From Clostridiaceae bacterium (GTDB taxonomy: Bacteria > Bacillota > Clostridia > Saccharofermentanales > Saccharofermentanaceae): a stretch of DNA of 64,000 bases. The notes below the pieces were generated by a model. It was not told the origin of the DNA. It searched no databases and was given only the letters and a program-made list of their open reading frames with translations. Location of the stretch: NCBI GenBank assembly GCA_012729635.1, contig JAAYCT010000033.1, positions 62,001-126,000 of the forward strand, written 5' to 3'. The position numbers and the translations under genes are program-made. Below, in pieces: positions 57,448 to 60,846 of this stretch (positions within the stretch are counted from its first letter, which is position 1; each line of letters begins with the position of its first letter).

Positions 57448-57486
57448 AAACTGTACAGACGATTCGTCGCTTGTACAGTTTTTTTA
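57448..57486 (+). terminator. Terminator after tRNA-Thr
   Basis: AAACTGTACA and TGTACAGTTT form a 10-bp stem around a 14 nt loop, followed by a T run. Confidence 0.9.
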
Positions 57487-57542
57487 ATGCTATAATATTT
57501 TTATTGTATTGGCTTTTGACGGAGGAGCGCGGAGGACGACGG

Positions 57543-59042
57543 GTGATTGCATTATTCGGCCCTTATCGTTATTCGAAAATCAGTTATGCTCGGAAGGATC
57601 GAGCATACATGCTTCTTTTCACAGCATTCCTATTTCTTTGTATGACCGTTCTCATCCCCGGATGCACACAAAAGCCGTCATTGTTTCCGGAAATTCCCGA
57701 TGCGTCGGATTCTGCGATTGTTTCTTCTTTTCCGTCCGAGCCCGTGCCGTCCACAACTGAAAATGCACCGGAAATCATTCGAATAGCGGCTCCTTTTTCC
57801 CAAGAAACCATGACGTTTCTGGTGCGACTTTATACGGCAAAAAAATATGAATCTCTCGGTATGGGGGTCACGGGACAAACGGTATCACTGGATTATCTTT
57901 CCACCGTTCAGCCTGAATTTGCCGTGGAAGTGATTAACACATCATTAACCGGAGCTGATTATTCCTCAATTATGAATTGGAGTAAATCAGGAACCATTCC
58001 GGATATTATGTTGACGGATTCTATCGCAGAGCTGACGGACAGGGGTTTTGTATTGCCGATGGATCAATATCTGGCAAAAAACGATCTGGTTTTACCTTCT
58101 CATGCCTACTACGACATGTTGACTCTTTTTGAGAAGTCCGGAAAGCGTTACGGCATCCCTTTTTCTGCTTCTGTGGCTGTCATTTTTTATAATTCCGAAA
58201 TACTAAACAAGACCGGTATCCCGGTTTCCTTTGAGCCGGACATGGAAGTGTTGATGGAGTATGCGTCTTTCATTCATCGATATAATGAGGACCAATCAGA
58301 TCCGGAGTCTGCCGTTTTTCCTTTCTTTTCCGCGTCCGAGCTATTCCCTTATCTCCCTTCGTCTTATGATTCGGATGCCAAGTATTTTGCATTCGAAGAA
58401 GGGTATATCGACGTGGATTCGGATGCATTTATTAAGTCAATTGAGTATATTCGTAGTTTTGAATCCCATTCATTTATAGAGGGATTGACGGCAGAGGAGA
58501 TATCGGAATATTTTGGTGCACTGCATCCGATTATTGCAAAAAGAGTTGCTTTTTGGGCCGGTCGAAGTGATGAAGTATCACGATGGGCGAATTATATGCC
58601 ACATACGCTCGGGCTTGCGCCCATTCCGAACGATCTTGGTTTAGAAAGCGGACCTTTCGCCGTAACCGTGTACCCTTTATGTGTTTCCTCCGATACCCTT
58701 CATCCCGGTTACTCGGTCGATTTTGCGACTTTTATTTCCCTGGATGCGGATGCAATTTTATTACGACTACGGCTAGAAAATCACGAGGGATTTATCCCCG
58801 TGATTAAATCGCCCGAGGTTTGGATGGCCACATTTGCTGAAGCAACATACTGCGGCCCCTTGGTCACGATTAAGGACAGCATGGATTGGGCGTATTATAC
58901 GCCGATCGGATCCAACCCGACTTTCCTTACCGAAACAGAAATGTTTCTCGGGGAGTACGGAGATCTATTGTTTTTTGAGAACACAAATATCGACGAGATA
59001 TTGGAATCGTATCGGGAAAATCGTGATATTTACGGAGGATGA
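57543..59042 (+). CDS. Extracellular solute-binding lipoprotein (ABC-type, family 1-like)
   Basis: Predicted surface lipoprotein of 499 residues. The hydrophobic signal (MLLFTAFLFLCMTVLIPG) ends in the lipobox LIPGC, at about residue 41 of the chosen frame. After a Ser/Pro-rich spacer, the mature part resembles sugar- or peptide-type solute-binding proteins: SIMNWSKSGTIPDIMLTD, VLPMDQYLAKND and YGIPFSASVAVIFYNSEILNKTG. The frame opens at 57471 inside the terminator; GTG 57543 with GGAGG (57531-57535) is preferred. No permease or ATPase is adjacent. Its ligand is unknown. It forms an operon with the next two genes. Confidence 0.8.
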   Translation: MIALFGPYRYSKISYARKDRAYMLLFTAFLFLCMTVLIPGCTQKPSLFPEIPDASDSAIVSSFPSEPVPSTTENAPEIIRIAAPFSQETMTFLVRLYTAKKYESLGMGVTGQTVSLDYLSTVQPEFAVEVINTSLTGADYSSIMNWSKSGTIPDIMLTDSIAELTDRGFVLPMDQYLAKNDLVLPSHAYYDMLTLFEKSGKRYGIPFSASVAVIFYNSEILNKTGIPVSFEPDMEVLMEYASFIHRYNEDQSDPESAVFPFFSASELFPYLPSSYDSDAKYFAFEEGYIDVDSDAFIKSIEYIRSFESHSFIEGLTAEEISEYFGALHPIIAKRVAFWAGRSDEVSRWANYMPHTLGLAPIPNDLGLESGPFAVTVYPLCVSSDTLHPGYSVDFATFISLDADAILLRLRLENHEGFIPVIKSPEVWMATFAEATYCGPLVTIKDSMDWAYYTPIGSNPTFLTETEMFLGEYGDLLFFENTNIDEILESYRENRDIYGG

Positions 59043-59054
59043 GGGGGAACGTTT

Positions 59055-60170
59055 ATGCCTGAAGTCACGTTGACTCCGGTTCGGATTAACGACTCATCAA
59101 GATTGAAAGAACATATCTTTCCGGAGATGAAGCCGGGAGATATCGCGGCGTTTATTCGTTCCTCAATCTCCGATCCTTCCGTCCGGCTTTACATGGCAAC
59201 TTCTTCCGACGCTTCCGATAATCAGGTTTGCGGACTAGTAGGCTTATACGGGATTCAACAAATCCATAACAATGCTTGGGTGTATTGTAGATTTTCGGAT
59301 ATTCTTGGTGACCTTACGGACCATGTAAAAGAGATAAAAAGAAAAATGATAGATACGGTTCTTCGAATCGCGTTTTTCTCCATGCACCTTCATAAGGTAA
59401 GTTGGAATATCGCGATATCGGACTTTGTCTCGGGAGATACGGCAGAAGTTTGCGGAATGAGACAGGAAGCAATTTTGGAGGAAGCACTTTGTGTGGATAA
59501 TGTTTACGTGGATGCCGGAATGTTCTCATTGCTCGCTTCGGAGTATCCGGATTATTCTGTTGCTTTTGTCTGTTTTCCGAAGGGGTTCATTGCAGTCCGG
59601 GGAAGTTCTGAGTTTGTTGAGGGTGTGCGATTTTATTCGTTCGGAGAAGTGATTGAAGATCCTTTTGATCGAACCGTTGCGATTCGAACCGGTGTTGCGG
59701 ATACATCAGGCGCAATCCGAACGGTTGCAGATAACGATTACCGAGACACAAAACCCGCTTTGCCGAGTGAAGTCGCCAAAGCCGCAAGGGAAATTTCCGA
59801 GTACCTGAAAAAGGCGAGAACCAAATTCAGTGTTAATGTTCGTTTTTCTCACGGAAGCGATTTTCAACGACATGTTTGGGAAGAAATCCGGAAGATTCCG
59901 TATGGAGTAACGGTCAGTTACGAGGACATCGCAATGGCATTAACGGGGAATGATCGAGTTGCCGCAAGAAACCTGACTCGGGCTGTGGGGTCCGCTTGCT
60001 CCGATAATCCGATCCCGGTCGTTATTCCGTGTCATCGAGTGATCGGAAAAGATGGAAAATTAGTCGGCTTTTCAAGTGGCGTGGAAATAAAGGAATTTTT
60101 AATTGAACACGAGATTTTCGGCTACTTTGGTAAAAAAATACCGGAACGGAGATGCCATGAAGACAAATAG
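59055..60170 (+). CDS. Fusion of GNAT acetyltransferase-like domain and O6-alkylguanine-DNA alkyltransferase (Ogt)
   Basis: Two-domain protein of 371 residues. The N-terminal part (about 1-185) resembles RimJ/RimL-type GNAT proteins: GLVGLYGIQQIHNNAWVYC, LHKVSWNIAISDF and AEVCGMRQEAILEEAL. The C-terminal part (about 225-360) is an Ogt-type DNA methyltransferase: HGSDFQRHVWEEIRKIPYG, VSYEDIAMAL, AVGSACSDNPIPVVIPCHRV with the acceptor cysteine in PCHRV, and GKLVGFSSGVEIKEFLIEHE. Ogt repairs O6-methylguanine by irreversible self-alkylation. The role of the fused domain is unknown. It lies 12 nt after the lipoprotein gene and overlaps the flavin reductase by 14 nt. Confidence 0.87.
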   Translation: MPEVTLTPVRINDSSRLKEHIFPEMKPGDIAAFIRSSISDPSVRLYMATSSDASDNQVCGLVGLYGIQQIHNNAWVYCRFSDILGDLTDHVKEIKRKMIDTVLRIAFFSMHLHKVSWNIAISDFVSGDTAEVCGMRQEAILEEALCVDNVYVDAGMFSLLASEYPDYSVAFVCFPKGFIAVRGSSEFVEGVRFYSFGEVIEDPFDRTVAIRTGVADTSGAIRTVADNDYRDTKPALPSEVAKAAREISEYLKKARTKFSVNVRFSHGSDFQRHVWEEIRKIPYGVTVSYEDIAMALTGNDRVAARNLTRAVGSACSDNPIPVVIPCHRVIGKDGKLVGFSSGVEIKEFLIEHEIFGYFGKKIPERRCHEDK

Positions 60171-60846
60171 TGAAACCCCCGATCGGATTGATTTTCCTCC
60201 CTCTGTTATGTTGTATCCTCTTCCTGTCGTAATGGTTTCGTGTGCGGGAAATCAATCCGATTATGAAGAAGACCGAGCGAACATAGTCACGGTTGCATGG
60301 GCGGGAACGGTTTGCTCGGATCCTCCGATGATTTCGATTTCACTAAGAAAATCAAGACACTCACATCGATTGATATCGGACACGAAAGAATTGGTCGTTA
60401 ATCTTGTCAGTCAGTCACTGGTTCATTCCTGCGACTATTGCGGAGTGCGATCCGGTCAAACGGAGGATAAGTTCGCATCCTGCCATTTGACGGCTGTTCC
60501 GGCATCCGGACTTAAACATGCTCCGGCCATCCTGGAGGCTCCGATTTATTTATCGTGTATCGTCGAAAAGACGATTGAGCTTGGCTCTCATGATATGTTC
60601 ATAGCAAGAATTATCTCTGTTTCCGTTGATCAGAGGATCGTCGGAGCCGACGGGAAAATCCGTATAGACAACGCTGACTTGGTTACGTATGTTCACGGAG
60701 ACTATTATTCCATAGGGAAGATGCTCGGATTTTTCGGTTACTCGGTTGCGTCCGCGGACAAACTGAGGAAACGAATGAAGAATGCAATCTTTGTAGCAAA
60801 AAGCACAACAAAGAAAATTTCCAAAAAGAAAAAACCGCGGAAGTGA
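60157..60846 (+). CDS. Flavin reductase / FMN-binding split-barrel protein (flavoredoxin-like)
   Basis: The 229-residue FMN-binding split-barrel protein opens PLPVVMVSCAGN and carries ANIVTVAWAGTVCSDPPMISISLRKSRHSH (in parts), a loop that binds FMN, then LVVNLVSQSLVHSCDYCGVRSG and GSHDMFIARIISVSVD, typical of RutF/flavoredoxin-like reductases. A basic KKISKKKKPRK tail ends it. ATG 60157 with an ACGGAG SD is preferred over the longer frame from 60103, which lies inside the preceding gene. The electron acceptor is unknown. Its last bases form part of a terminator. Confidence 0.87.
   Translation: MKTNSETPDRIDFPPSVMLYPLPVVMVSCAGNQSDYEEDRANIVTVAWAGTVCSDPPMISISLRKSRHSHRLISDTKELVVNLVSQSLVHSCDYCGVRSGQTEDKFASCHLTAVPASGLKHAPAILEAPIYLSCIVEKTIELGSHDMFIARIISVSVDQRIVGADGKIRIDNADLVTYVHGDYYSIGKMLGFFGYSVASADKLRKRMKNAIFVAKSTTKKISKKKKPRK

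Follow-up and report, generated by a model that had tools for sequence, protein, structure and literature searches.

What does an acetyltransferase-like domain do at the head of a DNA repair protein? The question is raised by one reading frame in the window, a 64,000-nucleotide stretch of contig JAAYCT010000033.1 from a Clostridiaceae bacterium, in which an N-terminal domain resembling GNAT acetyltransferases precedes an O6-alkylguanine-DNA alkyltransferase (Ogt; Table 1). The 371-codon frame contains no internal stop codons or frame problems. It begins 12 nt after the gene for a solute-binding-like lipoprotein and shares a 14 nt overlap with a flavin-reductase-like gene, after which a phosphofructokinase gene follows on the opposite strand. 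The frame is neither accidental nor the product of an assembly join: a sister MAG (L031) encodes a protein of 76% identity next to the same neighbouring genes, and the fused frame recurs throughout the order. The fusion is the sole PF01035 protein detected in its genome (96.65% complete). As this single Ogt was found, and a Pfam search returned no Ada zinc-binding domain (PF02805) in the window protein or its genome, a classical adaptive response is not evident in this organism.

Table 1. Coordinates of the fusion gene, its parts and its neighbours (positions of the window), and of two related frames (positions of their own loci).
Feature	Position	Strand	Basis
Extracellular solute-binding-like lipoprotein, 5' neighbour	57471..59042	+	PF01547 E=9e-6; syntenic across the family
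Whole ORF, putative pseudo-GNAT plus Ogt, 371 aa	59055..60170	+	ORF reading: 371 codons, ATG start
GNAT-derived N-terminal domain, aa 1-166	59055..59552	+	phmmer, family profile, Foldseek
P-loop position, aa 82-96, DILGDLTDHVKEIKR	59298..59342	+	Q/R-x-x-G-x-G/A motif absent; alignment with SpeG and 18 GNATs
Asp123 in place of conserved GNAT Asn	59421..59423	+	Alignment-column counts
Ala130 where SpeG has Tyr	59442..59444	+	Alignment with SpeG and controls
Ogt N-terminal RNase H-like (Methyltransf_1N-like) region, aa about 167-262	59553..59840	+	Position; weak matches in relatives
Ogt catalytic, DNA-binding domain, aa 263-356	59841..60122	+	PF01035 match at 269-353, E=1.4e-27
PCHR active site	60027..60038	+	Cys326 codon at 60030-60032
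Flavin-reductase-like protein, 3' neighbour	60157..60846	+	PF01613 E=6e-29; syntenic
DHFR, N-domain and Ogt in one uninterrupted ORF (f2), 510-513 aa range	L050:5042-6580	-	DHFR_1 E=6e-37 / 1e-32 (pair with L064)
DHFR, N-domain and Ogt in one uninterrupted ORF (f2), 510-513 aa range	L064:4774-6303	-	DHFR_1 E=6e-37 / 1e-32 (pair with L050)

The first-pass annotation had described an acetyltransferase-like domain fused in frame to a complete Ogt with an intact PCHRV site, and both parts of that description hold. The catalytic domain scores 95.8 bits against PF01035 (cut-off 27) and 94.1 against TIGR00589 (cut-off 46.4, E=4e-27), and PCHRV is intact in the window protein, with PCHR kept throughout the family alignment. 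In an alignment with a human MGMT fragment, Y289, R309, N318, C326, H327, K346 and E353 correspond to MGMT Y114, R128, N137, C145, H146, K165 and E172, respectively, and F339 occupies the position of MGMT Y158. The Arg finger (R309), Asn (N318), Glu (E353) and acceptor Cys (C326) of an Ogt are all present, and the segment leading up to the Arg finger exceeds that of human MGMT by 6 residues. Upstream of the catalytic domain, stand-alone Ogt orthologues begin with the same RNase H-like region as aa 167-262 of the fusion, and relatives give weak Pfam matches to the Ogt N-terminal region (L064 E=0.004, L008 0.07, L037 0.26). Because these residues correspond to the RNase H-like region, the Ogt is complete, and the GNAT-like part is an addition rather than a replacement. 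The window protein therefore shares with known Ogt/MGMT proteins (TIGR00589, PF01035) the catalytic domain, PCHR, Arg finger, Asn, Glu and RNase H-like region, and adds to them a GNAT-derived N-terminal domain of 166 residues.

The ancestry of this domain emerges at the profile level. Pfam and NCBIfam gave no match to the N-terminal 166 residues of the window protein, even at E=1, and a single-sequence phmmer search of the PDB returned weak SpeG matches (E about 1.3e-4). A profile of 13 family N-domains, however, recovered SpeG-type GNATs from the PDB at E=2.6e-11, followed by further diamine acetyltransferases (about 1e-10) and, lower in the list, RimJ/RimL-like proteins, and one relative (L053, family f4) exceeds the Pfam gathering score for Acetyltransf_3 (30.3 vs 25.4 bits). 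AlphaFold2 models were of low confidence (pLDDT 38 for the full length and 56 for the N-domain); the top Foldseek PDB matches of the N-domain model are all GNATs, with TM at most 0.45, which counts as support and not as proof. Profiles connect the N-domains of families f1, f3 and part of f4, and for these a descent from GNATs is a sound, if remote, assignment, whereas the f2 N-domains are too diverged to carry the claim.

Since the models were poor, the state of the acetyl-CoA pocket was assessed on the sequences, with controls, namely 18 stand-alone GNATs retrieved with the same profile from elsewhere in the phylum and aligned with the fused domains and SpeG. An initial P-loop pattern proved too strict (it matched 8/18 controls) and was replaced by alignment-column counts. 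Of the 18 controls, 17 carry the P-loop glycine, against 4 of the 47 fusion domains (Fisher p 5e-11, rows not independent), and the conserved cofactor-site Asn is found in 18/18 and 2/47, respectively (Fisher p 4e-14, again with non-independent rows), with Asp taking the place of this Asn in all 28 core family rows, two of which come from one contig. The segment at the P-loop position varies in length and sequence across the fused domains, a partial GxA being retained in some f4 members (L048, L053). The column of the SpeG Tyr, where filled in fused domains, holds Ala, Leu, Val or Ile, and varies among the controls too; Tyr often serves as the general acid of GNATs but is not universal among them. 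Compared with SpeG/RimJ-type acetyltransferases, the window domain has profile-level sequence homology and the same predicted element order, but lacks the acetyl-CoA P-loop, the conserved Asn and the Tyr. The N-domain has thus lost its acetyl-CoA-binding and catalytic signatures across the family, although the absence of motifs is no proof that ligand binding has gone too. With the P-loop glycine, Asn and Tyr gone, acetylation of a repair partner or sensing of acetyl-CoA, as proposed for this domain in the first-pass annotation, is unlikely, and a "GNAT" label on this fusion should not be taken as acetyltransferase activity.

Relatives of the fusion protein were found in 91 of the 98 genomes searched in one order, spanning four families, with most frames 350-430 aa in length; 63 fused sequences were extracted and two more added (L044, L045), a same-genus sister being counted twice. 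Outside this order, almost all Ogts of the class are stand-alone, at about 150-220 aa, and the Ogt tree sets the order apart from stand-alone Ogts with support of 100/99. The GNAT-Ogt fusion is therefore a real, lineage-specific variant of nearly order-wide occurrence. Its f1 locus is conserved as solute-binding protein, ogt and flavin reductase, all or part of which recurs in f3, often with phosphofructokinase. The solute-binding-like lipoprotein gene lies directly 5' of ogt throughout f1 and in part of f3, a pairing with a repair gene that has no evident reason. At the same conserved locus, four genomes of genus g7 in family f3 (L067-L070) encode an Ogt of 180-190 aa without the N-domain. 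The Ogt tree requires two changes, a single fused clade not being rejected (AU p=0.44), and g7 may either have lost the N-domain or never have had it.

Between sister species, the N-domain is 66% identical and the catalytic domain 92%. Raw substitution proportions were used in place of dN/dS as synonymous sites are saturated; in the N-domain the nonsynonymous proportion is 0.23 vs a synonymous proportion of 0.74, and in the Ogt catalytic domain the nonsynonymous proportion is 0.05. The N-domain therefore evolves much faster than Ogt, yet under purifying selection, and this constraint indicates that it is kept for something. Outside the family of the window protein, N-domain identity to it falls to 10-24%. 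The domain is acidic in f1, f3 and f4 (pI 4.9 in the window protein, median net charge -11 in the family core) and near neutral in f2. Non-specific DNA binding is disfavoured by this acidity, which leaves oligomerisation, stabilisation or partner docking as its likeliest task.

We consider it probable that the protein is a functional suicidal Ogt with a GNAT-derived pseudoenzyme as accessory domain. The Ogt would scan DNA and flip out O6-alkylguanine, the alkyl group of which would pass irreversibly to Cys326. A SpeG/RimJ-like GNAT may have been joined to Ogt in the order's common ancestor, or close to it, and afterwards have lost acetyl-CoA binding and catalysis, the pseudoenzyme domain being retained for structure, most likely for oligomerisation, partner docking or stabilisation of Ogt. 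We infer the docking or oligomerisation role by exclusion; GNATs often dimerise, which would suit oligomerisation. Ligand sensing without catalysis, in which the domain would regulate Ogt by binding a polyamine, or a nucleotide or CoA derivative in a new way, is a weaker alternative that we hold to be improbable: SpeG carries an allosteric polyamine site, and within the family core the N-domain is both acidic and well kept, but no conserved ligand-binding motif was recognised and the domain is highly divergent in the order. Still less probable is a passive, slowly decaying fusion remnant without important function, as might be suggested by the fast divergence and by the domain-free Ogt of g7, since an open frame is kept in nearly all other genomes of the four families and nonsynonymous change between sister species is held well below synonymous change. 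An active bifunctional enzyme acetylating a repair partner, a polyamine or Ogt itself is very unlikely, as the relationship to SpeG spermidine acetyltransferases and the purifying selection on the domain are outweighed by the disappearance of P-loop, Asn and Tyr across the core family and by the freely varying length of the P-loop segment.

The accessory pseudoenzyme reading is open to direct study, because the natural series at one locus (fused, fused with DHFR, and domain-free) lets such a role in DNA repair be tested. In every f2 locus read, DHFR is encoded either directly 5' of ogt or within one frame with it, and in two fused f3 loci it likewise lies 5' of ogt; in two f2 genomes DHFR, N-domain and Ogt form one uninterrupted frame (Table 1). 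A further-reaching proposal, which we regard as improbable, is that in this order an acetyltransferase fold has come to serve the sole alkyltransferase as a dedicated partner without enzymatic activity, with a specific task in regulation or docking. If so, the repeated DHFR link, as an adjacent gene in two families and as one polypeptide in two genomes, would physically connect the synthesis of nucleotide precursors with direct DNA repair.

Known Ogt fusions, among them Ada and AGT-EndoV, likewise join the alkyltransferase to a second domain, the reported partners being the Ada zinc domain, EndoV and a histone-like domain (PMC10779285). The word "acetyltransferase" occurs nowhere in that review of Ogt fusions, and we could not find a description of a GNAT-derived domain as an Ogt/MGMT partner in the literature searched, which covered few subscription journals. 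The earlier view of a GNAT partner as unusual stands to that extent with regard to the literature, but not with regard to occurrence in its own lineage, as the architecture runs through a whole order. Ogt was also seen in other large or composite frames. It is N-terminal in a 1111-aa ORF (L110:644-3976, minus strand, genome G185) and in a 574-aa ORF (L112:402-2123, minus strand, genome G310), the C-terminal parts of which have no Pfam match at E=0.001. A 795-aa frame (L111:584-2968, minus strand, genome G161) combines an NYN nuclease-type domain (E=1e-18) with a complete Ogt, and a 364-aa ORF (L113:852-1943, plus strand, genome G156) carries an HhH-GPD base-excision glycosylase domain C-terminal to Ogt.
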